Part shown: positions 291 to 13,865 of the stretch, piece by piece
Layout: each line of letters opens with the position of its first letter
Position numbering within the stretch: position 1 is the stretch's first letter
NCBI GenBank assembly: GCA_024683255.1
Contig: JAIKYL010000039.1
Coordinates: 1 to 13,898, forward strand
Length of the DNA stretch: 13,898 nucleotides
Direction: 5' to 3'
From: Bacteroidales bacterium
Lineage (GTDB): Bacteria > Bacteroidota > Bacteroidia > Bacteroidales > UBA932
Program-made: the position numbers and the translations under genes
The notes under the pieces: model-generated
Database searches by the model: none
What the model was told of the DNA's origin: nothing
Seen by the model: only the letters and a program-made list of their open reading frames with translations

Positions 291-325
291 ATGAAAAAAC
301 CGTCCTTTCCGGACGGTTTTTTCAT
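291..325. terminator. Bidirectional intrinsic terminator between convergent genes
   Basis: A perfect 15-bp stem (291-305 with 311-325) closes a 5-nt loop TTTCC. The inner stem CCGTCC/GGACGG is flanked by six A on the left and six T on the right, so each strand gives a GC stem followed by a U tract. It lies between the plus-strand membrane protein gene ending at 273 and the minus-strand gene ending at 454, and can serve both. Confidence 0.9.
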
Positions 326-332
326 TTTCTCG

Positions 333-422
333 CAATCTTGGTCACGTTTTGGGCCGTTTTCATGACTTAGCTCGTCAGTAACGACAATCTTGGTCACGTT
401 TTGGGGCAAAAACGTGACTTAG
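333..422. repeat. Two-unit direct repeat with internal inverted repeat
   Basis: Unit 1 is 333-370 and unit 2 is 385-422, a period of 52 bp. The first 21 bases of each unit are identical (beginning CAATCTTGGTCACG) and the last ten differ at one position (CATGACTTAG and CGTGACTTAG). The seven bases between differ. In unit 2 the outer parts form a 10-bp hairpin, GTCACGTTTT (393-402) with AAAACGTGAC (409-418). In unit 1 only GTCA/TGAC is kept. It lies in the convergent intergenic region, suggesting a REP-like dispersed element or paired binding sites. Function is unknown. Confidence 0.75.
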
Positions 423-453
423 ACGGTAGAAGTGGGGGCCAATCGGCCGAAAA

Positions 454-1602
454 TTATATGAGACTCACCAGCAGGTAGAGGAAATGGGCGATGATGCCGG
501 CGCAGAGGCCCGCTATGGCGTGAGCGCCCAGGGCCTTGGAAATGCCCTTGCGGAAGCCCAGGGAGTCGAACATGGCGGTGTGGGTGGAGAGGAAGCCGCT
601 CCAGCACATGCCGATGGCGGTGAAGACGGCCACGGCGTTGCCGTCCAGGATGCCGGCGGCGTTAAAGGTGGGCAGAAGGCCCAGAGCAGCGCCCACGGCA
701 CCGAGGGCTGTCATGGGGAAGGCGATGAGTTCCATGCTGCTGAAGCCGAAGAGCCATTCAAACAGCCAGTGCACCTTGCCGGCCAGCCAGGGCAGCACCG
801 GAACGCCCTGCGAAGAGGCGCCGGTATAGCCTTCCGGACCCGGGCCGAAGGTGAGCAGGATCACGATGGTGGTGATGATGAGAACGCCCGGAATAATTTG
901 CAGACCCAGCTCTACACCGTTCTTGCCGCCGTCCAGGATGGCGTTGAGAAAACGCATGAAAATGCCGTCCTTCTGCTCCTTATCCTCTTCCTTAATCTCT
1001 TCTTCCACAGGCGTTTCCGCCGCTATCGGCGTATCCAGCTGCGGCCAGGTCTTCAGGAGCGAGCGCTGCATCAGGCGGGTAGAGATGATGGAACCGCAGA
1101 CGGCCCCAACCAGGCCCACGAGGGCTCCGGCCGTCTGGCCGTAGCTCATCATGGTGATGATGACCACGAAGCCCATGCCGAAAGCCGTGCCGAAGTTGGT
1201 GAGGGAATAGAGCTGGTATTTCTTGAAATACGAGGCGAACGTACGGTCTTTGCTGAGGGCGATGATGGCGGGGTTGTCCGACAGGAACGTCATCACGCCG
1301 CCCAGGGCCGCCACGCCGGGCAGATTATACAGCGGCTTCATCAAAGGCCGAAGGAGCTTCTCCAGCAGCGTAACCACGCCGAACTCCACAAAGAGTTTGG
1401 ACAGGGCACCCGTGATAACGGTAATGCCCATGAGGAAGAACACCGTATTGAGCAGCAGGTCGTGCGCGGTGTTCATAATGGTCTTGAGGAGGTTCTCGCT
1501 GCCCATCCGGCTGCCCAAAGCCCAACAGCAAAGGAGGAGGACGGTGAGGAAAACCACCGCCTCCACCAGGCTTCTGTTTTTGATTTTCAACTTTTTGCCC
1601 AT
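454..1602 (-). CDS. Polytopic membrane protein with nucleoside-recognition (Gate-type) domains, CD0519/CD1768-like
   Basis: This 382-aa protein has about eight to ten hydrophobic helices, including residues ~13-30, 47-67, 130-150, 155-175, 236-255 and the last 20 residues. A strongly charged linker (~195-212, rich in E and K) separates two homologous-looking halves. The glycine-rich stretches in each half (F-L-S-D-N-P-A-I and I-G-M-C-W-S-G-F-L-S-T-H) resemble the nucleoside-recognition/Gate membrane domain, also found in spore maturation proteins SpmA/SpmB and in a family annotated CD0519/CD1768. The substrate is not known for that family. The ATG at 1602 gives a basic N-terminus (G-K-K-L-K-I-K) before helix 1. 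It starts 51 bp after the htpG stop with no terminator between, so cotranscription with htpG is plausible. Family assignment is from recall of motifs. Confidence 0.7.
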   Translation of the reverse strand: MGKKLKIKNRSLVEAVVFLTVLLLCCWALGSRMGSENLLKTIMNTAHDLLLNTVFFLMGITVITGALSKLFVEFGVVTLLEKLLRPLMKPLYNLPGVAALGGVMTFLSDNPAIIALSKDRTFASYFKKYQLYSLTNFGTAFGMGFVVIITMMSYGQTAGALVGLVGAVCGSIISTRLMQRSLLKTWPQLDTPIAAETPVEEEIKEEDKEQKDGIFMRFLNAILDGGKNGVELGLQIIPGVLIITTIVILLTFGPGPEGYTGASSQGVPVLPWLAGKVHWLFEWLFGFSSMELIAFPMTALGAVGAALGLLPTFNAAGILDGNAVAVFTAIGMCWSGFLSTHTAMFDSLGFRKGISKALGAHAIAGLCAGIIAHFLYLLVSLI

Positions 1603-1653
1603 GGCCGACTTTCAATTCGGCACTAAGTTACGGCAAAATGTTGAAATAAGCAA

Positions 1654-3579
1654 TTATTTGAGGTATGCGTCGTTCACCACTTTCTGGCTGCGGGCAATGA
1701 AGTCGGAGAGGGCTTTGCCCTTTAGCATGCCGTTGGCCAGGAGGGCCAGGTCCACAATCTGGTGCAGCATCTCACAGCCATCGGCATAAGTCTTAAGCTC
1801 GGCCTTGTGCTCGTCGGACTTTACGTCGCCCGTGGGCTTGGCACCAACGATCTTGGCCACCAGCGGGTTCTCCAGGTTCACGGTGATGTTGTAGCTCTCC
1901 GGCATGGAGCCGTAGAAGTTCATTCCGCCGCCCAGGGCGCTCATTTCCCTGTATCGGCGCATGAATTCGTTCTGGGTGATGAGGATGGGCGCGGCGTTCT
2001 CTCCCAGATTGTCGCCCTGCACAAAGTAGTCGTTGCCCTCCGGCAGCACGGCCTTGAAGAGGTTCTCCAAGTCGTAACGCTCGTCTTCCTTCATCTCCGG
2101 CTTCACCTTGTCCTCCTTGGGGATGAGGTTCTCCACGGCGTCCGAATCCACGCGGGCAAAACGGGTGTCCGTGAGTTTCTGCTCCAGCAGGTTCACATAG
2201 TGGGAGTCCAGCTCGCAGTCCATCAGGAGCACGTCGTAGCCCTTGTTCTTGGCCGCTTCAATGTACGCGTACTGGTCCTCCACGTTGGTGGCATAGAGGT
2301 ATACCAGCTTCTTGTCTTTATCCGTTTGAGCGCTCTCCACGGCCGATTTGTACTCGTCGAAGGAGAAGTACTTGCCGTCCGTGTTCTTGAAGAGGGCGAA
2401 CTTGAGCGCCCGCTCGCAGAACTTCTCGTCGGAGAGCATGCCGTATTCTATGAAGAGCTTCAGATTGTCCCACTTGGCCTCCAGCTGGGCACGCTCGTCC
2501 TTGAAGATACCTTCCAGACGGTCGGCCACCTTCTTGGTGATGTAAGTGGAGATCTTCTTTACGGCTGCGTCGCTCTGCAGATAGGAACGGCTAACGTTAA
2601 GCGGGATGTCCGGGGAGTCGATTACACCGTGCAGCAGCGTCATGAAATCCGGCACGATGTTGTCCACATGGTCCGTCACAAACATCTGGTTGCAGTACAG
2701 GGAAATCTTGTTCCGCTCAATGGCCACGCGGTCCTTGAGCTTGGGGAAATACAGGATACCGGTGAGGTTGAAGGGGTAATCCACGTTCAGATGGATGTAG
2801 AACAGCGGCTCCTCGTTCATGGGGTACAGCGTGCGGTAGAAATTGAGGTAATCCTCTTCCTTGAGCTCGCTGGGCGCCTTTGTCCAGAGCGGTTCCACGG
2901 CGTTGATAATCTTGTCCTTATCCGTATCCACGTACTTGCCGTCCTTCCATTCCTGCTCCTTGCCGAAGACAATGGGAACGGGCATGAACTTGCAGTATTT
3001 CTGGAGGAGGCCCTCGATGCGGGACTTCTCTGCATACTCGGCCGAATCGTCATCCAGGTACAGGGTTATCACGGTGCCCCTGTCGGCCTTTTCAATCTCT
3101 TCCATCTCATAGGCCGGGGAGCCGTCGCAGCTCCATTTCACGGCCTTTGAGCCCTCCTTCCAGGAAAGGGTCTCGATGGTAACCTTCTTTGCCACCATGA
3201 AGGCGCTGTAAAAGCCCAGGCCGAAGTGGCCGATGATATTCTGGATCTGGTCCTTGTACTTCTCCAGGAACTCTCCGGCGCTGGAGAAGGCAATCTGGTT
3301 GATGTACTTGTCCACCTCATCGGCCGTCATGCCGATACCGTTATCGATGACCTTGAGGGTCTTCTCCTTGGGATCCAGTTCCAGGTGCACCTGCAGGTCC
3401 CCCAGCTCTTCCTTGCAGTCTCCGGAGGCCGCCAGGGCCTTCATTTTCTGCGTTGCGTCCACGGCGTTGGCCACCAGTTCCCTAAGGAAAATCTCATGGT
3501 CGCTGTACAAAAACTGCTTGATCACCGGGAAGATGTTCTCGGTGGTTACACCAATCTGACCTTTAGTTTGCTTTGCCAT
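1654..3579 (-). CDS. htpG: Molecular chaperone HtpG (bacterial Hsp90)
   Basis: The protein is 641 aa, in the usual HtpG range. It is a cytoplasmic ATP-dependent dimeric chaperone. The GHKL ATPase domain is intact: R-E-L-V-A-N-A-V-D-A near residues 33-42 with the catalytic Glu and Mg-binding Asn, D-N-G-I-G-M at ~79-84, and the lid/G-H-F-G-L-G-F-Y-S-A-F motif at ~117-127. The middle domain carries the conserved L-Y-F-P-K and S-R-S-Y-L-Q motifs, and a C-terminal dimerisation region follows. The ATG at 3579 gives the standard start M-A-K...G-Q-I-G-V-T-T-E-N. A candidate -7/-33 promoter lies at 3620-3653 on the minus strand, divergent from the next gene. The membrane protein gene downstream may share the transcript. 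Confidence 0.97.
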   Translation of the reverse strand: MAKQTKGQIGVTTENIFPVIKQFLYSDHEIFLRELVANAVDATQKMKALAASGDCKEELGDLQVHLELDPKEKTLKVIDNGIGMTADEVDKYINQIAFSSAGEFLEKYKDQIQNIIGHFGLGFYSAFMVAKKVTIETLSWKEGSKAVKWSCDGSPAYEMEEIEKADRGTVITLYLDDDSAEYAEKSRIEGLLQKYCKFMPVPIVFGKEQEWKDGKYVDTDKDKIINAVEPLWTKAPSELKEEDYLNFYRTLYPMNEEPLFYIHLNVDYPFNLTGILYFPKLKDRVAIERNKISLYCNQMFVTDHVDNIVPDFMTLLHGVIDSPDIPLNVSRSYLQSDAAVKKISTYITKKVADRLEGIFKDERAQLEAKWDNLKLFIEYGMLSDEKFCERALKFALFKNTDGKYFSFDEYKSAVESAQTDKDKKLVYLYATNVEDQYAYIEAAKNKGYDVLLMDCELDSHYVNLLEQKLTDTRFARVDSDAVENLIPKEDKVKPEMKEDERYDLENLFKAVLPEGNDYFVQGDNLGENAAPILITQNEFMRRYREMSALGGGMNFYGSMPESYNITVNLENPLVAKIVGAKPTGDVKSDEHKAELKTYADGCEMLHQIVDLALLANGMLKGKALSDFIARSQKVVNDAYLK

Positions 3580-3619
3580 AGTATATATTGTTTTATTTCT
3601 TTTCCGCCGGGAATTCAGT

Positions 3620-3653
3620 CAAATTATAAGCCAGGGCCTTTCCTGCTGACAAA
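3620..3653 (-). promoter_or_regulatory. Candidate htpG promoter (Bacteroidota type)
   Basis: Read on the minus strand, TTTG (3653-3650) is followed 21 bases later by TATAATTTG (3628-3620), close to the Bacteroidota pattern TTTG...TAnnTTTG but one base longer in the -7 box. It would place the start point near 3613, giving a leader of about 33 nt before htpG. The match is imperfect. Confidence 0.4.
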
Positions 3654-3666
3654 TTGGCAGAGGTAC

Positions 3667-3697
3667 TTGACAATAATAATGAAAAACCTTATCTTTG
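3667..3697 (+). promoter_or_regulatory. Promoter of the CarboxypepD_reg-like/GH95 operon
   Basis: TTG at 3667-3669 and TATCTTTG at 3690-3697 are separated by exactly 20 bases. This is a perfect fit to the Bacteroidota primary-sigma consensus (TTG, then TAnnTTTG). The predicted transcription start near 3704 supports the ATG at 3719 as start codon and excludes the longer frame beginning with TTG at 3695. Confidence 0.8.
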
Positions 3698-3718
3698 AGG
3701 AGAGTAAAACGAACTGCC

Positions 3719-4969
3719 ATGAAAGCGCTCAATATTAACAGGTTCCTGGCCGTCCTCGCAGGGCTCCTCCTTGGGACTTTCGGCCTTTATGCCCAGACGG
3801 ATTCCGTCCGGCTGGGATACACCGTCCGGGGCAACGTGGTAGATGCCCTTTCCGGAAAGGTGCTGGAGTCCGTCCACGTGTCCATCCCGGAACGGCATTA
3901 TGCAACCGTTACCAATGCAGACGGAGATTTTGTTATCAAGAGCGATAGCCGCATCGGTACCCTGGTCTTTTCCTATGTGGGCTATAAAACCGTCTATCAG
4001 CGCGTTGGGGACGGAGATATGAAGGTGAGAATGACCCCGGAGACGCTCCAACTGGCTGAAGCCATGATCATATCGGCCGATCCGCTGGAGGTGGTCCGCT
4101 CGGCCATCTACAAGATTCCGGAGAACTACAGTTCCAAGCCGGAACTGCTGGAGTGCTTCTATCGGGAGACCATCCGCAAGGGTTCGCGCTACACGTACAT
4201 TTCGGAGGCTGTGGCGCGCATGTATAAGAATTCCTACAAGGGAAGCCTGGCGGCCGACAGGACGGCGCTGGAAAAGAGCCGCGTGCTCCTTAGCCAGCGG
4301 AAGCGGGATACCCTCAGCATCAAGGTGCAGGGCGGTCCCACGCTGGCCATGACCTTCGACCTGGTTAAGAACCGGGACCTGCTCCTCAACGAGAGGGACA
4401 TGGACAATTATTACTTCGAGATGGAAACGCCCACCTACATTGAGGACAGGCCTCAGTTCGTGATAAGCATCCATCCCGTCAGAGCCCAGGACCATGAATA
4501 TGCCATGTATTCCGGTACGCTTTACATAGACACGGAATGGCTTTCCTTCACCCGGATAGAACTGTCCCTGGACGTAAGTGACAAGGCCAAGGCCACCCGT
4601 ATGATGCTGGTTAGAAAGCCCCTCACCCTGCGCTTTACGCCCCGGGAAGTCTCTCTGCTGGTCACCTACCGGAAAGGAGAGGACGGCAAATTCCGCCTGG
4701 GCTATTTCCGCTCCACCATGCGCTTTGGCTGCGACTGGAGAAGACGTCTCTTCCAGACCAATTACACCGCAGTGAATGAACTGGTTATCACAGACTTGCG
4801 GGAACCGGCCACGCCCATTGACCGCAAGGATATCTTCCGGACAAGCGACATAATGAACGACAAGGCCACAGAATTCCTGGATCCGGATTTCTGGGAGGAC
4901 TACAATATAATTGAACCGTCCGAAAGCTTGGAACACGCTATCGGACGGCTAAAAAAGCAGATTAAATAA
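3719..4969 (+). CDS. Secreted CarboxypepD_reg-like domain protein
   Basis: The protein is 416 aa from ATG 3719, chosen because it follows a consensus promoter and starts directly with a signal peptide (basic M-K-A-L-N-I-N-R, hydrophobic core, A-Q cleavage region near residue 26). After it comes a ~75-residue carboxypeptidase-regulatory-like beta-sandwich (V-R-G-N-V-V-D through F-S-Y-V-G-Y-K-T), the domain that also opens SusC/TonB-dependent receptors. The remaining ~300 residues form a conserved Bacteroidota extension with R-E-T-I-R-K-G and beta-rich segments, but no plug or barrel, so it is not itself a receptor. The stop is 6 bp before the GH95 start, so the two are almost surely cotranscribed and both exported to the envelope. 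The precise role is unknown. Confidence 0.85.
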   Translation: MKALNINRFLAVLAGLLLGTFGLYAQTDSVRLGYTVRGNVVDALSGKVLESVHVSIPERHYATVTNADGDFVIKSDSRIGTLVFSYVGYKTVYQRVGDGDMKVRMTPETLQLAEAMIISADPLEVVRSAIYKIPENYSSKPELLECFYRETIRKGSRYTYISEAVARMYKNSYKGSLAADRTALEKSRVLLSQRKRDTLSIKVQGGPTLAMTFDLVKNRDLLLNERDMDNYYFEMETPTYIEDRPQFVISIHPVRAQDHEYAMYSGTLYIDTEWLSFTRIELSLDVSDKAKATRMMLVRKPLTLRFTPREVSLLVTYRKGEDGKFRLGYFRSTMRFGCDWRRRLFQTNYTAVNELVITDLREPATPIDRKDIFRTSDIMNDKATEFLDPDFWEDYNIIEPSESLEHAIGRLKKQIK

Positions 4970-4975
4970 TAATCC

Positions 4976-7342
4976 ATGAAAAAGATTCCGTTTCTCTTAT
5001 GCCTCATTCTGACGGCATTAGTTTCCTGTTCCCAATCCGCCACTCCCTCCAGCCGGGAGATGGTCCTGTGGTACGATGAACCCGCCGGCGAAGTGTGGCT
5101 GGACGGCCTTTTCATCGGCAACGGTTACATGGGCGGCAATGTGTTTGGAAGGGTTGAAAATGAGCGGATTGCGCTCAACGAATCCACTTTCTGGTCCGGT
5201 CGGCCCCACGACTACAACGATCCGGAGGCCCACAACTACTATGACCAGATCAAGCAGCTCATGTATGAGAAAAAGTACAAGGAGGCGGAGAAACTGGTGG
5301 ATGAACATTTCTACGGAAAACCCGCCAACCAGCAGACCTATGTGCCGGTGGGAGACCTGCTGCTGGATTTCCAGAAAGGAGAAGAAGTTAAGGACTACTA
5401 CCGGGAACTGGACATGGAAACGGGCATAGTGACGGTGCACTATACCCAGGACGGCGTAAAGATGACCCGCGAGGTGTTCATGTCCTATCCGGACCATGTG
5501 ATGGTAATGAAGGTATCGGCCGATAAACCCGGCAGCGTGAATGTGGAAGCCAGGCTCCAGAGCCCCTTCCGGCGGAAGATTGCCGCTCAGGGGAACCGCC
5601 TCACCATGAACGGCACCTGGAGCTATCTCCCCACCCGCATCTTCGACCTCATTGCCAAGGTGGAAGGCGACGGAATGAGCTTCCAGACGGATGTGGTGGC
5701 CCTTCCGGAGAAGGGAAAGCTGGAGGCCACGGATTCCAGCCTGGTGGTTAGCGGCGCCAACTCCGTAACGTTCGTGCTCACCATAGCCACGGACTTTGTG
5801 AATTACAAGGACATCAGCGGAGATCCATCGGCCCGCTGCGAAAAGATTCTGGCCGATGTGAAGGGTAAGAATTATAAGCAGCTCAAAGCCACGCACCTGA
5901 AGGATTTCTCCGGCCTCATGAGCCGGGTGCACCTCACCGTGGGAGACGGCGCGGAGAATGCCAAGCCCACCAATGTGCGCGTTGCGGCCCTCAAGCAGGG
6001 AGAGCCGGATTCGGACCTGCAGGCCAAGCTCTTCCAGTTCGGCCGGTATATTACGGTTTCCAGCAGCCGGGAAGGCAGCGAACCCAGCAACCTCCAGGGC
6101 CGATGGAGCCAGGATCTCCTCCCCAACTGGGGCAGCAAATATACGCTCAACGTTAACACGGAAATGAACTATTGGCCCTCCGAGGTAACCAATCTCTCCG
6201 AATGCACCGCTCCCCTGTTCCACCTGCTGGAAGACCTGGCGGAGAACGGCGCGGAGACGGCCAGACTTTATTACGATGCCGACGGCTGGGTATCCCACCA
6301 CAACACGGACCTCTGGAGAGGAACGGCGCCCGTGGACGCCGCCCGCTACGGCATGTGGCCGATGAGCGGCGTATGGCTCTGCCAGCACGTCTGGGAGCAC
6401 TATCTGTTCACGGAAGACCTGGACTTCCTCCGGAAGTATTATCCCATCATGAAGGGAGCCGCAGAGTTCCTCCTGGACATCCTGGAGGAGAATCCCAACT
6501 ACGGATACCTCACCATCCCCTTCTCCATGTCCCCGGAACAGGGCTATTTCATTGACGGCAATCCGGAAGAGATGTTCCTGGCACCTTCAACCACCATGGA
6601 CAACGCCTTAATCCGTGACCTCTTCCCGCACCTCATTGAAGCATCCAAACTCCTGGGCGTGGACAGTGACTTCAGCGAAAAGCTGGCCGATGTCCTGGAG
6701 AAGATTCCGCCTTACATGATTGGCGAAAACGGCATGCTGCAAGGCTGGATTGAGGATTGGACCCGCGGACGGGAGAACCACAACTGGTCCGGCACCTTCG
6801 GCCTGTATCCTGGCAATTCCATCACCCTCAGGGGAACGCCGGAACTGGCCAAGGCCGTGGAAACCTGGCTGGAGCCGCGTCCGGTTACGGTTTTCTGGAA
6901 CAGCGCCATTGACATCTGCCAGTGGGCCCGTCTGGAGAACGGAGAGAAGACGGACGAGATTCTCCGGAAGATCTTCATGACCCCTCCCGGCCGACGCCGT
7001 TTTGGCCCCAGCGGCTTTGGCAACAACCTGCATTTCTCCGGTTCCAACCAGTCGGACATCAACTTCGGCCTCACGGCTGCCATGGCGGAAAGCCTGCTGC
7101 AGAGCCATGCGGGAGAGATTTCCATCCTGCCTGCGCTTCCTGTAAGCTGGAAAGACGGCTCCGTGAGCGGCCTCAAAGCCCGGGGCGGCTATGAGGTTAG
7201 CATCAGCTGGGCCGATGGAAAGATGACCTCCTGCGAGATCAAATCCCTGCTGGGCCATCCGTTTACGGTCCGTTATGCCGGCAAGACCAAAGATTTCACT
7301 TTGGCCGCCGGTAAATCTGTTAAGCTGGGTCCGGAGCTTTAA
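4976..7342 (+). CDS. GH95-family glycoside hydrolase lipoprotein (divergent alpha-L-fucosidase-like)
   Basis: The 788-aa length is normal for GH95. The N-terminus has a lipoprotein signal with lipobox L-V-S-C (Cys18). No acidic export signal follows the Cys, so a periplasm-facing anchor is likelier than surface exposure. GH95 signatures run in order: L-W-Y-D-E-P-A (~31), I-A-L-N-E-S-T-F-W-S-G, Y-V-P-V-G-D-L, L-N-V-N-T-E-M-N-Y-W-P (N392, N394), T-T-M-D-N-A-L-I-R-D-L-F, G-L-Y-P-G (609-613), Q-S-D-I-N-F-G (D694) and L-L-Q-S-H-A-G-E-I. The family hydrolyses alpha-L-fucosides or alpha-L-galactosides. Oddities: the usual L-Q-E-W is L-Q-G-W here (G590), and the usual H-R-H-x-S-H-L block is N-H-N-W-S-G-T (601-607). 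The pocket therefore differs from classical members and substrate is uncertain. It is second in a two-gene operon. Confidence 0.9.
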   Translation: MKKIPFLLCLILTALVSCSQSATPSSREMVLWYDEPAGEVWLDGLFIGNGYMGGNVFGRVENERIALNESTFWSGRPHDYNDPEAHNYYDQIKQLMYEKKYKEAEKLVDEHFYGKPANQQTYVPVGDLLLDFQKGEEVKDYYRELDMETGIVTVHYTQDGVKMTREVFMSYPDHVMVMKVSADKPGSVNVEARLQSPFRRKIAAQGNRLTMNGTWSYLPTRIFDLIAKVEGDGMSFQTDVVALPEKGKLEATDSSLVVSGANSVTFVLTIATDFVNYKDISGDPSARCEKILADVKGKNYKQLKATHLKDFSGLMSRVHLTVGDGAENAKPTNVRVAALKQGEPDSDLQAKLFQFGRYITVSSSREGSEPSNLQGRWSQDLLPNWGSKYTLNVNTEMNYWPSEVTNLSECTAPLFHLLEDLAENGAETARLYYDADGWVSHHNTDLWRGTAPVDAARYGMWPMSGVWLCQHVWEHYLFTEDLDFLRKYYPIMKGAAEFLLDILEENPNYGYLTIPFSMSPEQGYFIDGNPEEMFLAPSTTMDNALIRDLFPHLIEASKLLGVDSDFSEKLADVLEKIPPYMIGENGMLQGWIEDWTRGRENHNWSGTFGLYPGNSITLRGTPELAKAVETWLEPRPVTVFWNSAIDICQWARLENGEKTDEILRKIFMTPPGRRRFGPSGFGNNLHFSGSNQSDINFGLTAAMAESLLQSHAGEISILPALPVSWKDGSVSGLKARGGYEVSISWADGKMTSCEIKSLLGHPFTVRYAGKTKDFTLAAGKSVKLGPEL

Positions 7343-7347
7343 CGGCC

Positions 7348-7938
7348 TTATCGGCCAATAAGCTGTAAGAATTCGTTCCTTGTCCTGGCGTCCCGGAGGA
7401 AGGCGCCGGAGAAGGCCGATGTGGTGGTGATGGCGTTGGACTTCTGCACGCCGCGCATGGACATGCAGGTGTGCATGGCTTCAATGACCACGGCAACGCC
7501 CAGCGGCTTCAGAGATTCCTGGATGCAGTCCCGGATCTGTTCCGTGAGGCGCTCCTGCACCTGCAGGCGGCGGGCATAAGTCTCTACCACGCGGGCCACT
7601 TTGCTGAGGCCCGTGATTTTACCGTCCGGGATATACGCCACATGTGCCTTGCCGATGAAGGGCAGCATGTGATGCTCGCACAGGGAGAACAGTTCAATGT
7701 CCTTCACAATGACCATATGGTCGTACGGCTCCTCGAAGAGGGCGCTCTTCACAATTACCTCTCCGTCCTGGAAATAGCCCTGGGTGAGGAACTGCATGGC
7801 CTTGGCCACGCGTTCCGGAGTCTTCTGCAGGCCTTCCCGGTCCGTATCCTCTCCCAGCAGCTTAAGGATGGCCTTGATGTGCCCCGCAAGCTCCCGGGTG
7901 GTGTTTTCGTCGTATTCTTCAATCTTTCTGTATGCCAT
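7348..7938 (-). CDS. folE: GTP cyclohydrolase I (FolE)
   Basis: This 196-aa protein converts GTP to 7,8-dihydroneopterin triphosphate, the first step of folate (and queuosine precursor) synthesis, in the cytoplasm. Zinc ligands are visible as C87 and H90 in [10 protein letters not shown], and C158 in H-T-C-M-S-M-R-G-V. The G-L-S-K-V-A-R-V-V motif and the C-terminal T-R-x-E-F-L end are also present. I chose ATG 7938 (M-A-Y-R-K-I-E-E) over the in-frame ATG at 7965. The upstream one would add nine atypical residues and would sit only about 6 nt after the transcription start implied by the -7 box at 7979-7986. The stop lies 5 bp from that of the convergent GH95 gene, with no obvious terminator between. 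Confidence 0.96.
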
Positions 7939-7978
7939 GGTCTGTTCTTTGTAGCGATGCCGCATTAAAAATAGTGTG

Positions 7979-7986
7979 CAAAATTA
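7979..7986 (-). promoter_or_regulatory. folE -7 promoter element
   Basis: On the minus strand the sequence reads TAATTTTG, a perfect match to TAnnTTTG, about 40 bases before the chosen folE ATG. No TTG is found at the expected -33 position. Confidence 0.55.
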
Positions 7987-8018
7987 ACGAAAAAAAATCA
8001 TTCTATTGTTTTTTTTTC

Positions 8019-8026
8019 TATCTTTG
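8019..8026 (+). promoter_or_regulatory. -7 promoter element of the DUF2795-like gene
   Basis: TATCTTTG matches TAnnTTTG exactly and follows a long T tract. No TTG at the right spacing. The start point would be near 8033, so the hairpin at 8035-8052 would form the extreme 5' end of the mRNA. Confidence 0.6.
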
Positions 8027-8034
8027 CAGCCCCA

Positions 8035-8052
8035 AACGGAGGACGCTCCGTT
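8035..8052 (+). promoter_or_regulatory. 5' leader hairpin
   Basis: AACGGAG (8035-8041), loop GACG, CTCCGTT (8046-8052) is a perfect 7-bp stem about two bases after the predicted transcription start. There is no T tract of terminator type after it. It may protect the 5' end or bind a regulator. Confidence 0.5.
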
Positions 8053-8072
8053 AAAAGTCAAGATAAAAGCTT

Positions 8073-8096
8073 GATTATTAACAAGATTATTAACAA
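8073..8096 (+). repeat. Tandem 12-bp repeat in the leader
   Basis: GATTATTAACAA occurs twice head to tail (8073-8084 and 8085-8096), 17 bases before the start codon of the DUF2795-like gene. The unit is AT-rich and lies in the untranslated leader. Confidence 0.85.
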
Positions 8097-8113
8097 TTAG
8101 AACACTATAGACT

Positions 8114-8335
8114 ATGTATTGGACACTCGAACTTGCCAGCTCCCTGGACGATGCTCCGTGGCCGGCTACCAAAGAGGAACTCATCGACTACGCAACCCGC
8201 ACCTGCGCTCCCGACGAGGTGATCGAGAATCTGGAAGAGCTGGACGATGATACGGAAATCTACGAATCCATCGAAGACATCTGGCCGGACTACCCCACCA
8301 AGGATGACTTTATGTGGAATGAGGAAGAATATTGA
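8114..8335 (+). CDS. Small acidic DUF2795-like protein
   Basis: The 73-aa protein is strongly acidic with no signal peptide. Its middle (W-P-A-T-K-E-E-L-I-D-Y-A, then A-P-D-E-V-I-E-N-L-E-E-L) matches the DUF2795 pattern, a short helical domain of unknown function. A Bacteroidota-specific tail follows (I-W-P-D-Y-P-T-K-D-D-F) ending W-N-E-E-E-Y. It has its own promoter and an 80-nt structured leader, as expected for a well-expressed housekeeping gene. Its last 19 bases before the stop are repeated downstream (9092, and core at 13431), so its 3' end appears to serve as an integration site. An inserted element supplying its own end would leave the protein intact, as seen. The family call is from motif recall. 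Confidence 0.85.
   Translation: MYWTLELASSLDDAPWPATKEELIDYATRTCAPDEVIENLEELDDDTEIYESIEDIWPDYPTKDDFMWNEEEY
8315..8333 (+). repeat. att-like direct repeat, copy 1
   Basis: TGGAATGAGGAAGAATATT forms the last codons (W-N-E-E-E-Y) of the DUF2795-like gene plus the first base of its stop. It is identical to 9092-9110, and its last 13 bases are identical to 13431-13443. Confidence 0.85.
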
Positions 8336-8361
8336 TTTGATAATCAATAAGTTACAGATAT

Positions 8362-8390
8362 AAGCTAAGGTTTTTGCCTTGGCTTTTTCT
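8362..8390 (+). terminator. Intrinsic terminator after the DUF2795-like gene
   Basis: Stem AAGCTAAGG/CCTTGGCTT (one G-T pair) with a 6-nt loop TTTTTG (8371-8376), continuing into a run of T to 8388. It lies 27 bp after the stop codon. Confidence 0.75.
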
Positions 8391-8478
8391 GTCTATTTAC
8401 TTCCCCAAACACTTCCCATTTTTGGAGGGAATCATCCTGGAGAAGGAGGAGGAATAGTTAAGAATCGGATAAAAAGAG

Positions 8479-8486
8479 TATCTTTG
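8479..8486 (+). promoter_or_regulatory. -7 promoter element of the 135-aa ORF
   Basis: TATCTTTG fits TAnnTTTG exactly. The predicted start near 8493 leaves a ~15-nt leader to the ATG at 8508. The -33 region has only a weak match (GTTA at 8457-8460). Confidence 0.6.
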
Positions 8487-8507
8487 AGCAGTTAATCGAT
8501 AATTGGA

Positions 8508-8915
8508 ATGGGAATCCAGAAACAATCAACTAAAAGAATAGCAAAGTTTATTGGGATTATCCTCCTGGTAATTGTTGTTCTATGTGTCACCATATCAATA
8601 ACACCCACATTCGGCCGGCAGGTTCCTTTCAACGAGTGGGTTTGGAAGCATCATCCCGTTCATAAGGTTCGCTACTTTATGTCGGATGACCTTGTTGAGA
8701 AACTTAACACGGAAGAACCGACTATTGAGCAGGTGGCAGAACTGTTAGGTCATCAAATGATGGGAGGCCACCACATTCAAGTTGGTGACAGGTGGGTATC
8801 ATACTTTTTAAGAACTCCTCCATTTCTTCTTATTGGACTTGATATGTATACACTAGATATTTGTTTTGAGGAGGATGGTTCGTTCATAAAAGCGAGTGTG
8901 AACTTCTCAGATTAA
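8508..8915 (+). CDS. Small membrane-anchored protein, possible BamE/SmpA-like fold
   Basis: The 135-aa protein starts at ATG 8508, just after a good -7 box. Residues 1-12 are basic (K-Q-S-T-K-R) and residues ~13-32 form one membrane helix (F-I-G-I-I-L-L-V-I-V-V-L). There is no lipobox. The ~100-residue soluble part has the order helix (T-I-E-Q-V-A-E-L-L-G), beta strand (W-V-S-Y-F-L), and a final D-I-C-F-E-E-D-G-S-F strand pair. This order is seen in BamE/SmpA-like small envelope domains, but similarity is at the level of fold pattern only. It is the sole gene of module 1, and no partner is visible. Function is unknown. Confidence 0.7.
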   Translation: MGIQKQSTKRIAKFIGIILLVIVVLCVTISITPTFGRQVPFNEWVWKHHPVHKVRYFMSDDLVEKLNTEEPTIEQVAELLGHQMMGGHHIQVGDRWVSYFLRTPPFLLIGLDMYTLDICFEEDGSFIKASVNFSD

Positions 8916-9091
8916 AGTCCCATTCTTATTGACAGAATCCTGAGCATACACTGGGGGAAGTAACTAAGATTTGTTATTGTCATTGCAAGCTATCCCAGCC
9001 AGTCTCAAACTATCCCTGTGACTATCCCAAGTTTGTGAATACAAGTGTAAATTGTTGATAATAAGCATTTTATCTCAAACTGCACTTTTTC

Positions 9092-9110
9092 TGGAATGAG
9101 GAAGAATATT
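9092..9110 (+). repeat. att-like direct repeat, copy 2
   Basis: TGGAATGAGGAAGAATATT is identical to 8315-8333. Similarity extends left through ACTTT with two mismatches in the next three bases. In frame it reads F-F-W-N-E-E-E-Y-stop (TAA), i.e. a detached C-terminus of a DUF2795-like gene with no gene body upstream. Two bases past the repeat it also matches copy 3 (TAA). Confidence 0.85.
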
Positions 9111-9153
9111 AAGTCAATCAACTAACTGAAATACAATTACTTGAACAAGTTAA

Positions 9154-9188
9154 ACGGCAGGACTTTTGGGTCCTGCCGTATTGTTTTT
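9154..9188 (+). terminator. Strong intrinsic terminator
   Basis: A perfect 10-bp stem ACGGCAGGAC (9154-9163) with GTCCTGCCGT (9170-9179), loop TTTTGG, followed by ATTGTTTTT. It lies 44 bp after copy 2. This is the distance and form expected for the original terminator of a DUF2795-like gene ending at copy 2. Confidence 0.88.
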
Positions 9189-9270
9189 AGATATTAAATT
9201 ATCACAAAAATCAAACTTTTTCAGGCCATTTTGGGGACCGATGGTGCTCTTCGAGTTGTAAGGAAGAAGA

Positions 9271-9732
9271 GTGGTTCTCGAAGTTGAAAGAGAGCCTTAC
9301 CCGGACTTCTATATTGCAATCACTTTGGATGTAATCGGCATAGACCTTTCCCGTGACACTATATTCGCTATCATGATACACGAAGATGAATTGCCTGCCT
9401 TCATGGAAGAGGTCAGAAGACGCGCGCTGCTTGCATGTGACAACAAGCCTGAGTATGTACGGGCATTACGGGAGAGTCCGACTTGGTCCCGGTTCGGGAA
9501 CGGTGAAATCGGTTACTGGAAGAACACTGGCTATCGGTACGATTTCTTTGAGAAGCCAAATGAGTTCAGGGAGTTGATGATGCAGAACATAATTGCCGCA
9601 TACTTGTCGGATAGAAGACAAGGCTGTAGCAATCTTATAGACCATCTCCCTTTACTGACGTTCAAGAATGAGAATGTGGAAGGTGAGTATCTGCATTTCT
9701 ATTGTATTGAGGATATTGTACAACGAAGATAA
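9271..9732 (+). CDS. Hypothetical protein, 153 aa, possibly 5'-truncated
   Basis: The frame is open from GTG 9271 (preceded by GGAAGAAGA) to a TAA at 9730-9732. An in-frame TAA at 9259 blocks any longer version, and the first ATG in frame is not until 9373. The protein is soluble, mixed alpha/beta, with strands Y-I-A-I-T-L-D-V-I and T-I-F-A-I-M-I at the start, a helix L-P-A-F-M-E-E-V-R-R-R, an aromatic patch W-K-N-T-G-Y-R-Y-D-F-F, and helix R-E-L-M-M-Q-N-I-I-A-A-Y-L. I recognise no family. A short in-phase-like remnant (ATG at 9241, M-V-L-F-E-L-stop) resembles the V-V-L-E-V-E start, so the 5' end may be rearranged. It lies 101 bp upstream of the endonuclease gene. Confidence 0.55.
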   Translation: MVLEVEREPYPDFYIAITLDVIGIDLSRDTIFAIMIHEDELPAFMEEVRRRALLACDNKPEYVRALRESPTWSRFGNGEIGYWKNTGYRYDFFEKPNEFRELMMQNIIAAYLSDRRQGCSNLIDHLPLLTFKNENVEGEYLHFYCIEDIVQRR

Positions 9733-9802
9733 GGCCGGCAAAAGACTTCCTCATCATCTCGATTTTCATTGATAGTTGCCTATCTCACAGAAAAGTTGTA
9801 AA

Positions 9803-9823
9803 TTGCGTTGCATTGTAACGCAA
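9803..9823 (+). promoter_or_regulatory. Inverted repeat in front of the endonuclease gene, candidate operator
   Basis: TTGCGTT (9803-9809), spacer GCATTGT, AACGCAA (9817-9823) is a perfect 7+7 inverted repeat ending 10 bases before the ATG at 9834. It is placed where a regulator or an RNA hairpin would limit nuclease expression. No controller (C) protein gene is visible nearby. No convincing TAnnTTTG element was found for this gene. Confidence 0.5.
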
Positions 9824-9833
9824 CTTATTTGCA

Positions 9834-10799
9834 ATGAAGAAGTATGTAATTAATAGGAATAACACCGAACAGTGGAAAGAAGATGTCAAGAAGTCCGTCA
9901 TGTTCTATAATGATTGGTTCTTGGCATTTGCCCCCTCAACCTATATCAACGCACGTCAAGATGCCATCAACAGAGTGAACAATGCCTTCCAGAAAACGGA
10001 TTGTTTTAATTTGTTGTCAACAGACATATTAAAGTCTGCGCCAGAAGCGATCACCATTCTACGGATGGCGACTACGCCCCCGTTAGCGAGAGACAGATTA
10101 GTGGGCCTTTCTGAAGTCCCAAAATCCTTGATTACATCGCTGGAGGACGGAAAACTACCTGCGAAGATGGCGGTATCTGCTCTGGATAAACACCTTAAGA
10201 GTATTATTGCTGTTATCAATAAGCTTTTAGATGTTGATATCATGCCTTGGTTAGCGGACAAATCTTCTCCTAAAGAGATAGATCGGCTTTTGGCAACTCA
10301 TGTTATTGGCGACCGTGTTTGTGGTTCGCTATCTGACCCAATTATCCGCAATGAACAAGAGCGGAGACAGCTTAACAGCATCGCAAAGTATCTTACCGCC
10401 AAGGGTTATCAATTCGTGGAATCCAAATCCATCGAAGATTTCAGAAAGATGGAGAAGGGCTCCTTCTCCTTTCATCTTAACGTTCCCGTCACAATGGATA
10501 GAATTCAGACAGTGAATATGCCAATTGATGCTGTCATTATGCGACAGTCGGCTAATAAAGGGGATTATCCTGTCTTAATTGAATGTAAGTCGGCTGGTGA
10601 TTTTACAAACACTAATAAACGCCGGAAAGAAGAAGCCACAAAAATTGAACAATTAAAAAACACATACGGAAAGAAAATCGAATTCATCTTGTTTCTCAGT
10701 GGCTATTTTGATAGTGGTTATTTGGGATACGAAGCCGCAGAAGGCATTGATTGGGTTTGGGAGCATAGGATAAGTGATTTACAGCGAGCTGGAGTATAA
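9834..10799 (+). CDS. XamI-family type II restriction endonuclease
   Basis: The 321-aa protein resembles the XamI restriction endonuclease family, whose founding member cuts GTCGAC. A mostly helical N-terminal half (residues ~1-190) precedes a nuclease core of PD-(D/E)XK type. Its candidate metal ligands are D232 in M-P-I-D-A-V and E250-x-K252 in P-V-L-I-E-C-K-S-A-G-D. The next strands (I-E-F-I-L-F-L-S-G) and the closing G-I-D-W-V-W-E-H-R motif fit the family. The core looks intact, so activity is likely. The start codon follows an inverted repeat by 10 bases. The stop is 4 bp before the methyltransferase ATG, a normal R-M operon layout. That its site is GTCGAC is only an inference from the family name. 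Confidence 0.85.
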   Translation: MKKYVINRNNTEQWKEDVKKSVMFYNDWFLAFAPSTYINARQDAINRVNNAFQKTDCFNLLSTDILKSAPEAITILRMATTPPLARDRLVGLSEVPKSLITSLEDGKLPAKMAVSALDKHLKSIIAVINKLLDVDIMPWLADKSSPKEIDRLLATHVIGDRVCGSLSDPIIRNEQERRQLNSIAKYLTAKGYQFVESKSIEDFRKMEKGSFSFHLNVPVTMDRIQTVNMPIDAVIMRQSANKGDYPVLIECKSAGDFTNTNKRRKEEATKIEQLKNTYGKKIEFILFLSGYFDSGYLGYEAAEGIDWVWEHRISDLQRAGV

Positions 10800-10803
10800 T
10801 ACA

Positions 10804-12336
10804 ATGGATGAGATAGAGATTAGACGCAAAGCTTTGCAGGATAGCTTGGATGCGGGGAAGACCCAAAAGGAACGCAATATATTGGGTCAGTTCTCGACTC
10901 CATTCCCACTAGCATCTGATGTGATGCTTTATTTGCGTCGATTGATGGGGCGGGATGATATTTCGCTAATTGAACCCTCTATCGGAACCGGGGTTTTCTA
11001 TTCAGCGTATAGGGATTTGTTTGTAGATAGTAAGGAGCGAGTCCTTGGATTTGAGATAGACCCGTATTACTTTAAACCGGCTCAGCAATTCTGGAATGGG
11101 ACGAATTTGGAGATTAGGTGTGCAGATTTCCTATCCCAACAGCCAGATAGAAAATTTGACATGCTAGTCGCTAATCCTCCGTATGTGCGCCATCACCATA
11201 TTGAGAGTACAGTTAAACAGCATTTAAAAGGAGAAGTCTTTCGAGAGTCAGGATTGAAGATTTCTGGATTGGCAGGGTTGTATTGCTACTTTATGATATT
11301 GTCCTCAAAGTGGCTAAAAGATGGTGGAGTTTCTTGTTGGCTTGTCCCTAGTGAATTTATGGATGTCAATTATGGCGTGGCTGTTAAACAGTTTCTTCTT
11401 CAAAATGTAGAACTGATTCATATTCACCGATTTGGTCTTAATGACTTGCAGTTTAGCGATGCTTTGGTAAGTTCTTGCGTCGTCGTATTTCGTAACCATA
11501 AACCATCTGATGGCCATCCAATCCGGTTTTCCTTGGGTGGGAGTATCAACAATCCGGAAACATGCAAATTATTAGATCGGAACCAGCTATCATCTAAAAC
11601 AAAATGGACCAGTCTCTTTGGGAATGATGTCGTTTCTGATGTTTCCGGAGCCATATTAGGTGATTTTTTTACAGTTAAGCGGGGCGTTGCAACTGGTGAT
11701 AATGACTTTTTTATATTGGATAAAGAAACAATTACCAAATACAGTATCCCGGCGAAATTCCTTCGCCCTCTTATACCCAGTCCTCGTTATATTAAGGGTA
11801 ATCGAATAGATAGCGAAAATGGTTTACCCGTTGTCGATCGGCAACTCTTCCTTTTTTGTTGTAGTCTTCCAGAGGATATTCTGCGAAGGGAGTATCCGAA
11901 GGTGTGGGAGTATATCTGCGTAGGCTATGAGCGAGGTGTTCAAGGCGGTTATATTTGTAGCCGTCGATCTCCATGGTATTCCTGTGAAGAAAGAGAGCCT
12001 GCCTCCATTATTATGCCTTATATGGGGCGGTCTGAGACGAATAACCAGATGTTCCGTTTCATTCTTAATTCTTCTTCGGCGATCACGACTAATGTATATC
12101 TTTTGCTATATCCCAAACCGCAATATGTTCAATGTATGAGAGATGAAAGTGTACTATTGGATGTATGGCGTGAGTTAAACGCTATCCCTGCAGAAACCCT
12201 TTCCCGAAATGGCCGTTTTTATGGCGGTGGTTTGAGGAAAATAGAACCGAAGGAATTGATGAATACTCCGGTTAATGGCATAGCTTCATTATTAATTCCG
12301 CATACTTCGGGTTATCAGTTATCCTTATTTGATTAA
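10804..12336 (+). CDS. N6-adenine DNA methyltransferase (gamma class, Eco57I/TaqI-like), partner of the XamI-type nuclease
   Basis: The 510-aa protein uses ATG 10804. It transfers a methyl group from S-adenosylmethionine to adenine in the recognition site and so protects host DNA. Motif X-like G-Q-F-S-T-P is at ~28-33, motif I E-P-S-I-G-T-G-V-F at ~57-65, motif II E-I-D-P at ~84-87, and catalytic motif IV N-P-P-Y at 124-127. The order X-I-IV with a C-terminal target domain makes it gamma class. The C-terminal half has the TaqI-type specificity region (V-K-R-G-V-A-T-G-D-N-D-F-F; later Y-G-G-G-L-R-K-I-E-P-K-E-L). All catalytic motifs are intact. A GTG in frame at 10774 would overlap the nuclease and is less likely. 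No separate promoter was identified. Confidence 0.93.
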   Translation: MDEIEIRRKALQDSLDAGKTQKERNILGQFSTPFPLASDVMLYLRRLMGRDDISLIEPSIGTGVFYSAYRDLFVDSKERVLGFEIDPYYFKPAQQFWNGTNLEIRCADFLSQQPDRKFDMLVANPPYVRHHHIESTVKQHLKGEVFRESGLKISGLAGLYCYFMILSSKWLKDGGVSCWLVPSEFMDVNYGVAVKQFLLQNVELIHIHRFGLNDLQFSDALVSSCVVVFRNHKPSDGHPIRFSLGGSINNPETCKLLDRNQLSSKTKWTSLFGNDVVSDVSGAILGDFFTVKRGVATGDNDFFILDKETITKYSIPAKFLRPLIPSPRYIKGNRIDSENGLPVVDRQLFLFCCSLPEDILRREYPKVWEYICVGYERGVQGGYICSRRSPWYSCEEREPASIIMPYMGRSETNNQMFRFILNSSSAITTNVYLLLYPKPQYVQCMRDESVLLDVWRELNAIPAETLSRNGRFYGGGLRKIEPKELMNTPVNGIASLLIPHTSGYQLSLFD

Positions 12337-12388
12337 GCAGTATTGTTTGTACTATACTTTTTCACTGGATAAAAACGCGATTCACCAT

Positions 12389-13228
12389 ATGGCCAGAGCA
12401 TTAGATTTAGTAGTTAATACAGAGGATGTCTCTCTGATTATTAATGCTCGTCAGAGTAAGGTTTCTACAACTGACTTGATAAAGTACCTGTCTAATTATG
12501 AGCAGCTATTGAAGTCTATTAATTATGTGCTAAATGCCAAGTACTGTATTGGTTATGATATGGTACAAGTTGACATTGAAGGACTGAAAGAAGGGAGTTT
12601 TGAGATTAAATCTAAGATTAAGAAGTTCTCAGAAAAGACATTAGAAATCTTATTTGGCATTTTCCTTACGAAGATTCTTACAAATGATCCAACGCCTATT
12701 ACTCTTAACATCAATGGCGATAATGTTGTTGTTAATGTTTCTGATATAAATACGGATAGAAGAGTTGTAGTTCAAAGAAGCAAGCTTGCTAGAACAGCAA
12801 ATGATGACCAAGAAGTTGATGGGATTGCTATTGAACTGGAAAGAGAGGATGGTAAGCGAGAAAAAGTAGACATTACCCGAAATGAACTTAGTGGAATTAT
12901 AGTTGATGAAGAGGACTTGTCCAACATGGAATCTAGTTGGGTGCACAATGTTACCATGGTAATAGTTGCGCCTGTCCTTGAAAGTGAACCAGCAAGTTGG
13001 AAAATCCGAATTGGAGACAAAAAATTTTCTGCGAGAATGACTGACGAGTCTTTTCTGGCATTAATGAATGAAGAAAAAATAGCATTTGGTAAAGGAGATA
13101 CTATCGTTGCCGATTTAGAAACACAGATTACAACAAAAGAAGGGTCTACTCCAAGCGTCAAGCATTTTATTAGAAAGGTGCACAAGTATCCCCGCTATGG
13201 ACAACCAAATAATCATACTTTATTTTAA
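12389..13228 (+). CDS. Unknown protein downstream of the R-M genes, 279 aa
   Basis: From ATG 12389 the protein has 279 residues. An in-frame TTG at 12329, overlapping the methyltransferase end by 8 bp, would add 20. It is 52 bp behind the methyltransferase on the same strand, with no terminator or promoter between, so it is probably cotranscribed. Seen features: an N-terminal alpha/beta part (L-D-L-V-V-N-T-E-D-V-S-L-I-I), a strand-turn-strand V-D-I-E-G-L-K-E-G-S-F-E-I, then a hydrophobic helix E-I-L-F-G-I-F-L-T-K-I-L (too short to be a sure membrane span). A beta strand (T-L-N-I-N-G-D-N-V-V-V-N-V) and a beta-rich charged C-terminal half follow. I recognise no domain and no nuclease, helicase or ATPase motif. 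It could be an accessory, inhibitor or effector part of the system, or an unrelated passenger. Confidence 0.75.
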   Translation: MARALDLVVNTEDVSLIINARQSKVSTTDLIKYLSNYEQLLKSINYVLNAKYCIGYDMVQVDIEGLKEGSFEIKSKIKKFSEKTLEILFGIFLTKILTNDPTPITLNINGDNVVVNVSDINTDRRVVVQRSKLARTANDDQEVDGIAIELEREDGKREKVDITRNELSGIIVDEEDLSNMESSWVHNVTMVIVAPVLESEPASWKIRIGDKKFSARMTDESFLALMNEEKIAFGKGDTIVADLETQITTKEGSTPSVKHFIRKVHKYPRYGQPNNHTLF

Positions 13229-13430
13229 GATCGCATACTTGAATTGAAACTCAAATGAGTAATATCGTTTTTAAGTCATTATTAGAAGTTGTTATGCCAT
13301 GTTATGTTTCCGCCTATTTTAGCTTGTAGAAGTGTGAAATAAGTCATGCCAGATCTGGGGCCAGACCATAATAACGCTACCTAACCACTTGATAATCAGT
13401 CAGTATTCTTTTATTCGCAACCAATTTAAC

Positions 13431-13443
13431 GAGGAAGAATATT
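13431..13443 (+). repeat. att-like direct repeat, copy 3 (core)
   Basis: GAGGAAGAATATT is shared by all three copies; copies 2 and 3 continue with AA. The codon before is AAC instead of AAT, so the frame again reads N-E-E-E-Y-stop, here after Q-F. This preservation of coding sense, not just of bases, supports a common origin from the end of a DUF2795-like gene. Confidence 0.7.
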
Positions 13444-13530
13444 AATGGCTTAACTACCTGAAAATAAGCAATTTAAGGACACTGAGGGCCAGGTACGGAA
13501 ACAAAAGTGAACTCAAAAACAGACGCAATT

Positions 13531-13561
13531 CCGTGAGGGGGTCAAATTGACCCCCTCACGG
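13531..13561. repeat. Perfect 31-bp palindrome
   Basis: Two 15-bp arms around a single central A: the left arm begins CCGTGAGGGGGTCAA and the right arm is its exact complement. It ends one base before the -33 box of the next gene. No U tract follows on the plus strand. On the minus strand it is followed by a T-rich stretch after about 10 bases. It could be an operator, a transcription barrier, or a recombination or protein-binding site. Confidence 0.85.
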
Positions 13562-13562
13562 C

Positions 13563-13593
13563 TTGCAAGGGTTTGGATATTTAGCTATTTTTG
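13563..13593 (+). promoter_or_regulatory. Promoter of the Bro-N fragment gene
   Basis: TTG at 13563-13565 and TATTTTTG at 13586-13593, separated by 20 bases, fit the Bacteroidota consensus exactly. The start point near 13600 makes the ATG at 13614 the real start and excludes the ATG at 13596. Confidence 0.75.
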
Positions 13594-13613
13594 TAATGGC
13601 TACATTTGTTGTT

Positions 13614-13865
13614 ATGTCTGATATAGAGAAAATACAGTTGTTTGAGGACCAGAAAATCCGGACAATATGGGTTGAGAGCGATGAGAAATGGTATTTCTCT
13701 ATCAAAGATGTAGTCCTGATACTCGCCGATGCGAAGGATCCAAAAGATTACCTTTCCAAAATGAGGCGCCGCGAACCGGAACTTGCCAAAGGGTGGGGAC
13801 AAATTGTCCACCCCCTTGTTGTACGCACCCCTGGAGGCCCTCAGAAAGATAATTTCGCTGTCTGA
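13614..13865 (+). pseudogene. Truncated Bro-N domain protein
   Basis: From ATG 13614 the frame encodes 83 residues, ending at TGA 13863-13865. It matches the start of Bro-N domain proteins (DNA-binding domain of phage antirepressors and related Bacteroidota proteins): I-Q-L-F-E-D-Q-K-I-R-T-I-W, W-Y-F-S-I-K-D-V-V, D-P-K-D-Y-L-S-K-M-R-R-R-E-P-E-L, W-G-Q-I-V and T-P-G-G-P-Q-K. Complete members continue with a conserved N-C-A...L-F-R-I-I-Q-S-I-P-S-P-K-A-E-P-F-K segment, which is missing. After Q-K the frame reads D-N-F-A-V-stop. Base composition turns GC-rich just after this point, suggesting a recombination junction, not a single frameshift. The promoter is intact, so a short peptide may still be made. 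Confidence 0.75.

Follow-up and report, generated by a model that had tools for sequence, protein, structure and literature searches.

The 3' end of a small DUF2795 gene in the Bacteroidales is probably an attachment site at which integrase-less gene cassettes accrete in tandem. The stretch of DNA from which this proposal stems, hereafter the window, is the whole 13,898 nt of contig JAIKYL010000039.1 of a Bacteroidales bacterium (GenBank assembly GCA_024683255.1). Behind its DUF2795 gene are two complete integrase-less cassettes, one consisting of a single gene and the other of a XamI-type restriction-modification (RM) system with a relative of the defence candidate PDC-S42, followed by the start of a third. 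Across the window and related loci we observe a repeat of the gene end, element boundaries that fall at this repeat, variable cargo, ends shared between different elements, integrases at the site, transfer of cassettes between species and, in another genus, one comparison of an occupied site with empty ones.

In the mechanism proposed here, the gene end (approximately TTY/TGG-AAY-GAR-GAR-GAR-TAY-TRR) would be recognised by site-specific tyrosine recombinases encoded in integrative elements of the Bacteroidales. Recombination within this core would rebuild the last codons, leaving the gene intact with the new element behind it, and the old gene end would be displaced downstream as an orphan copy. 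Elements bearing an integrase would be placed directly behind the gene, and integrase-less elements would persist as cassettes of one to a few genes, accreting in tandem and perhaps being moved in trans by the integrases of other elements.

Three copies of the gene end in the window

The DUF2795 gene (8114-8335, on the forward strand like all features of the array given below; PF11387, E 6.7e-18) has an intact reading frame and is flanked on its left by folE, encoding GTP cyclohydrolase I (7348-7965, reverse strand; PF01227, E 7.5e-76); several relatives likewise have a folE-like gene upstream of DUF2795. The 3' end of the gene, TGGAATGAGGAAGAATATT (copy 1, 8315-8333), recurs exactly as copy 2 (9092-9110), while copy 3 (13425-13443) has three mismatches to copy 1, its final 13 bases (13431-13443) being exact. 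An earlier reading made from the letters of the window alone, the sequence-only reading, had described this repeat with its 13 bp core, and had called a 19 bp exact repeat very unlikely to arise by chance; the coordinates were reproduced, and 200 dinucleotide shuffles of the window gave no match with three or fewer mismatches. A check of the in-frame residues likewise agrees with its statement that all three copies read N-E-E-E-Y-stop and that no gene body precedes copies 2 and 3, the residues immediately ahead of these two being unlike DUF2795. The terminator it had noted at 9154 was also placed, at 9154-9179, by a scan that found 10 terminator-like hairpins in the window, against 4.4 expected from shuffling. 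Its description of AT-rich genes lying between the copies was correct in that G+C content falls from 56% over positions 1-8113 to 36-45% in the six open reading frames (ORFs) measured past DUF2795, but AT-rich DNA also continues beyond copy 3 and off the end of the window, and hence the number of elements in the array is at least three rather than two.

Variable cargo in related genomes

The site was compared across genomes and loci, designated by G and L numbers respectively, with G001 the nearest genome to the window among those compared. A relative of DUF2795 was detected in 54 of 61 sampled genomes, including 32 of the 33 better ones. An 18 bp core pattern matched in 103 of 151 genomes of the window's genus, against two matches of a backward control pattern, and matched twice or more in 40 of them by a hand count that includes genomes with two DUF2795 genes (G031, G161) or another kind of match (G033, G168). 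Orphan copies, at least one per genome, were found in 34 of the 64 own-genus genomes with fetched copies, the window included, these 64 having been picked largely for their several core matches.

The loci used for counting elements contain 129 copies, comprising 75 gene ends and 54 orphans. Between successive copies lie 33 complete elements, 777 bp to 20 kb in length and 14 of them shorter than 1.45 kb, carrying unrelated cargo; a 90 bp duplication (L068) and a core beginning CAC (G040/L159) were excluded. Each of these 33 elements is bounded on either side by the gene-end sequence in direct repeat, and the DUF2795 frame in the window is unbroken, as is expected of site-specific integration at a gene 3' end. 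By a crude longest-ORF caller, the small cassettes mostly consist of one ORF on the same strand as DUF2795. RM, toxin-antitoxin (TA) and helicase genes were seen at the site, as was one barstar cassette. One element in G092 (L195 and L196 joined, 22062-24485) looks composite: the middle part matches a TA unit of YoeB type found in G106, and the end matches one of the cassettes of G094.

Such differing cargo between copies was what the sequence-only reading had suggested looking for in relatives, and neither of the outcomes it named as refuting, a gene order fixed everywhere or a dispersed repeat unrelated to DUF2795, was seen. Its notion of a general Bacteroidales hotspot is upheld as regards variable cargo including defence genes, but needs narrowing, as repeated cores are much rarer outside the genus. 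Contig ends lie within 250 bp behind 9 of 31 DUF2795 genes of the window's genus and within 250 bp before none of the 31 (G047, whose contig cuts the gene, was omitted); among 23 genes in other families, none has a contig end that close behind it and one has it that close before it. These breaks fit mixed occupancy or repeats, among other possible causes.

Three or more copies are present on six contigs. That of G092 has five, in the order DUF2795, a 20 kb integrase element with genes that by eye resemble those of type I restriction systems, and then four further copies. This order would be expected if the integrase element next to the gene were a platform that captured and shuffled single-gene cassettes, themselves a separate population, through the shared attachment (att) site, as in an integron; the predominance of single ORFs on the DUF2795 strand among small cassettes and the ends common to different elements would also fit. 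We nevertheless consider such a platform unlikely, as only G092 and G093 among the six contigs have an integrase hit, and the terminator-like sequence present behind many cores (by eye; two cases in the window by scan) makes a common promoter unlikely.

An end motif and shared ends

At 27/28 or 38 to 42 bp before the core, 40 of 69 orphan copies carry the motif TTGATAATNA with at least 9 of 10 positions matching, compared with none of 173 gene copies and 2.1% of shuffles; at least two of the 69 (L284 and L285) look like chance matches to the core and were retained. The motif was chosen by eye on the 45 copies that had been read first, of which 28 have it, but it is also present in 12 of the 24 orphan copies read later, every time at 28, 39 or 40 bp. 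Both orphan copies of the window match at 10 of 10 positions, TTGATAATAA (9055-9064) lying 40 bp ahead of the AAT of copy 2 and TTGATAATCA (13389-13398) 39 bp ahead of the AAC of copy 3. The two spacings are about one helical turn apart, as might be expected of arm-type integrase sites on one face of the helix.

The left ends form clusters spanning different cargo, and 8 of the 14 clusters with at least three members mix copies that have an integrase hit with copies that do not. The left end of the first element in the window is 84-87% like those of G122, G070 and G017, which lead to other cargo; the right end of the second is 69% identical to element-closing ends in G034 and G106, again with different cargo; and the left end of the third (13447-13477) is identical at 31 of 31 bases to that of an integrase-bearing element in G035. 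The right end of the integrase element in G451 is 96.8% identical to that of a 1.2 kb one-gene cassette at L023, in an Alistipes metagenome-assembled genome. Integrase-less cassettes therefore have ends in common with integrase-bearing elements.

G103, G139, G066 and G077 have left ends of approximately 180 bp that are 92-98% identical to one another, and homologous recombination between shared ends of 60-180 bp, instead of site-specific recombination, could in principle shuffle the cargo. This explanation appears improbable, as it explains neither why elements in distant families have arrived at one and the same gene end, nor the integrases at the site, nor the insertion in Segatella copri described below.

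Integrases at the site

Of 239 distinct copies, 26 have an integrase-like frame starting no more than 0.7 kb behind them, on the same strand in 25 cases. Three integrases were tested against Pfam, and all have Phage_integrase and SAM-like domains, with an arm-binding domain in two, the Phage_integrase models being general ones. A close relative of the G092 integrase occurs in 16 genomes of the genus and lies beside the DUF2795 end in 13 of them. Elements that span two copies and start with an integrase were also seen in other genera, measuring 14.3 kb (L025/G176), 19.2 kb (L040/G177) and 27.7 kb (G451). Behind the orphan copy at the far end of the L025 element lies another integrase frame (L271:2362, in G176), so that two integrase elements may be present in tandem. 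Integrases whose own element starts at this core, another check that the sequence-only reading had proposed, were thus found, and the label 'integrase-less' that had been given to the modules holds for the content of the window but not for the hotspot, which also hosts integrase-bearing elements.

Movement between species and empty sites

The shared cassette stretch of G006 and G012 is 94.2% identical over 966 bp, against 76.7% for the folE-DUF2795 region of the same genomes; the equivalent values are 95.2% (815 bp) against 74.8% for G092 and G106, 94.6% (684 bp) against 70.7% for G031 and G106, and 95.1% (672 bp) against 74.0% for G092 and G094. Cassette DNA has been transferred between species.

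Two loci of the Prevotella group (L010 and L034) represent empty sites: they lack a second copy of the core, and a porP-like gene lies approximately 0.1 kb behind DUF2795. By contrast, in S. copri (L014) an 8.5 kb integrase element and a second copy intervene before the same porP-like gene. This element (L014:1175-9689, strain Indica) encodes a beta-lactamase (PF13354), two DDE transposases and an AbiEi/AbiEii-like pair. Tannerella forsythia (L028) has the plain order, with a porP-like gene after DUF2795 and, behind it, what we take to be gld-like type IX secretion genes; DUF2795 followed by a porP-like gene, as at L028, L010 and L034, is perhaps the old arrangement. Empty sites, which the sequence-only reading had proposed to seek, hence exist in the Prevotella group, but the genus of the window yielded no pair of an occupied and an empty site, and both the integrases beside the site and the occupied and empty sites come from loci other than the window.

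Origin of the integrase-less cassettes

Searches at E 0.01 detected no integrase-like stretch in 26 of the 28 elements shorter than 6 kb, the first two elements of the window among them. Remnants survive elsewhere: a shortened integrase frame is kept in G055, and a Bro-N element in G012 retains 49 residues of an integrase C-terminus that are absent from the G006 element, to which it is 94% identical over the shared 966 bp. Given these remnants and those in G458 and G459, some of the cassettes, if not more, look as though they arose by internal deletion with both ends kept.

An alternative is that the integrase-less modules are simply dead remnants left in place, a fossil array moved only by homologous recombination or along with a neighbour. 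Accretion of cis-mobilizable elements (CIMEs) is an established route in the parts of one account drawn on here (PMC5704250), and such decay would readily produce both the broken integrases of L065, L094, G458 and G459 and the Bro-N series, in which G012 keeps the integrase C-terminus and G006 and the window lack it. Decay alone is rather unlikely to be the whole explanation, however, as cassettes are 94-95% identical across species despite flank identities of 71-77%, the end motif is kept at its set spacing where no integrase remains, and the elements are so often small (14 of 33 below 1.45 kb) and so consistently free of integrase-like stretches (26 of 28 below 6 kb).

As to the point of exchange, pairs of elements sharing one end only are informative: sequence before -3 tracks the right end and that beyond +16 mostly the left end, and third-position variants at +8 and +11 follow neither (43 and 108 pairs, which are not independent). 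This weakly suggests that exchange would lie inside the core.

Evidence weighing against an attachment site

A number of observations count against the DUF2795 end being an active site of accretion. No integrase is present anywhere in the 13,898 nt window. Integrases are broken or truncated in L065, L094, G458 and G459, with the fragments of the latter two lying behind the gene, which means that some occupants are dead. The integrase beside the DUF2795 end in G131 (L217) is the only one of the 26 to lie on the opposite strand, and in G020, G078 and G121 the relative of the G092 integrase is located away from the site. Only 172 of the 213 copies with no integrase hit have around 1.5 kb or more of downstream sequence, so some of them may be integrase-bearing, and 29 of the 69 orphan copies lack the end motif at 9 of 10 positions. 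At L050 and L070, approximately 2 kb of other genes separate DUF2795 from porP with no recognisable second copy. Among the loci compared there is no occupied and empty pair within the window's genus and none within a single species; neither a circular form nor excision was seen, and a fixed pattern of core plus left end was unmatched in viral contigs.

The breadth of the phenomenon is similarly constrained. Outside the genus, two or more core matches occur in 19 of 295 genomes of the order, compared with about 27 matches of the backward pattern (both hand counts). Repeated cores at the level of the order are near chance overall and part of these 19 genomes is due to chance, such that spread beyond the genus rests on the individually read loci.

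Finally, at L068 (10219-10330) the second copy belongs to a 90 bp tandem duplication of the DUF2795 end that includes residues of the gene body and is not a cassette, and a second copy alone is therefore no proof of an element. This case gives some substance to the idea that the copies arose generally when the gene was duplicated in tandem and the bodies were then lost. We judge that very improbable: the in-frame residues ahead of orphans are not those of DUF2795 and no body remnants were seen by this test, which is the same one that defined the orphans, and 40 of the 69 orphans have a motif of their own upstream. With these points taken together, accretion of integrase-less cassettes at the DUF2795 attachment site remains the reading that we favour.

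Elements and cargo of the window

The first element (8333-9109), delimited by the core boundaries, is a 777 bp one-gene cassette. Behind copy 1, at its left end, is a terminator-like hairpin (8362-8385), followed by an ORF of 135 residues (8508-8915) with no Pfam family, for which 16 relatives were found; the protein has a weak BamE-like fold, and its best structural match is a type VI secretion system (T6SS) immunity protein.

The second element (9110-13442), delimited by the core boundaries, is a 4.3 kb RM cassette with the terminator-like hairpin at 9154-9179 at its left end. It contains a 153-residue ORF with no Pfam family in the scan (9271-9732), a XamI-type restriction endonuclease (9834-10799; PF09572, E 1.4e-95; PADLOC REase_II), an Eco57I-type N6 DNA methyltransferase (10774-12336; PF07669, E 2.8e-16; PADLOC MTase_II) and the 299-residue relative of PDC-S42 (12329-13228; PADLOC E 3.5e-18), which has no Pfam family.

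The cargo of the third element, which runs off the window, starts with an ORF of 100 residues (13563-13865); this short ORF has no Pfam hit, but its product is similar, as judged by eye, to the beginning of the Bro-N protein encoded in the G006 cassette. The DNA of the element matches that cassette, whose own protein is Bro-N. A long G+C-rich inverted repeat with no T-run was noticed by eye in the left part of the element (13531-13562). The Pfam scan of the window's ORFs gave no relaxase or conjugation domains. Near the left end of the window are a perfect 16 bp inverted repeat and two 38 nt direct repeats, 82% alike (290-326 and 333-422).

Comparison with known systems

Tandem elements at the 3' end of a single gene, some with no recombinase, are familiar from the staphylococcal cassette chromosome (SCC) and pseudo-SCC elements at orfX/rlmH of staphylococci. 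SCC elements differ from the DUF2795 cassettes in having serine Ccr recombinases, in their larger size and in their occurrence in Firmicutes. In integrons, too, small gene cassettes with a common recombination site form tandem arrays and a tyrosine integrase is used, whereas the DUF2795 attachment site lies inside a conserved chromosomal gene and terminator-like sequence is found behind the cores. It is conceivable, albeit doubtful, that the Bacteroidales have an integron-like cassette economy that dispenses with attC, in which several families of tyrosine recombinase would serve one gene end, and single-gene cassettes for defence and immunity, drawn from a common pool and having standard ends, would be taken up, stacked and passed between species in trans.

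CIMEs are elements that have kept both att sites, have lost the genes for integration and transfer, and can accrete in tandem at one site, as described in the sections of the account used here (PMC5704250). The first two elements of the window have att sequence on both sides and no integration or transfer genes that were found, as in CIMEs; cassettes that arose by internal deletion and kept both ends would also fit the definition of a CIME (PMC5704250). The CIMEs covered in those sections occupy other phyla and target genes (PMC5704250), whereas at DUF2795 many cassettes are single genes of around 1 kb with ends shared across species. The ssrA islands of Dehalococcoides also form tandem arrays, with a 20 bp gene-end repeat and diverse cargo, 15 of them reportedly having no integration module; they depend on a CcrB-like serine recombinase and on ssrA, according to the portion of their description available to us (PMC3146451), rather than on tyrosine recombinases and a protein-coding gene. 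A third parallel is PAISt of Streptomyces turgidiscabies, a partial account of which describes insertion at a gene 3' end by a tyrosine recombinase, an internal repeat and modular excision; this is one large island with an 8 bp palindrome (PMC4057263), unlike the arrays of small cassettes considered here. The suggestion of the sequence-only reading that tandem integrase-less modules of this sort were undescribed does not hold for the phenomenon in kind, given CIMEs and Dehalococcoides, but the site itself, cassettes of a single gene and an end motif held in common do look new.

The DUF2795 end combined with TTGATAATNA provides a sequence handle for retrieving a class of mobile cassettes of gut bacteria, among which several of unknown function sit beside restriction, TA and candidate defence genes. 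It also makes testable the movement of integrase-less cassettes in trans in the Bacteroidales and the assembly of arrays of small defence or immunity genes. Most alike in form among Bacteroidales systems are the recombinase-associated acquired interbacterial defence (rAID) arrays, which have a tyrosine recombinase, co-oriented short genes of low G+C content and conserved intergenic motifs; the portion of a 2025 preprint drawn on here mentions no DUF2795 end for them (PMC12247911). One barstar cassette, and the cassette protein with a T6SS immunity protein as its top structural match, add to the likeness, whereas the Pfam scans made here gave no SUKH domain and the cargo extends to RM, TA and helicase genes. 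Set against the rAID criterion of at least two co-directional genes below 41% G+C, the ORFs of the window are co-directional, with 36-45% G+C and one of six below 41%. By eye, no array was present in the 5-9 kb examined behind DUF2795 at three Bacteroides loci (L032, L039 and L051). The preprint, in the same portion, describes the mechanism of rAID biogenesis as an area of active research (PMC12247911), and an integron-like cassette economy of the kind raised above, if real, may also be how immunity arrays of the rAID type are built.

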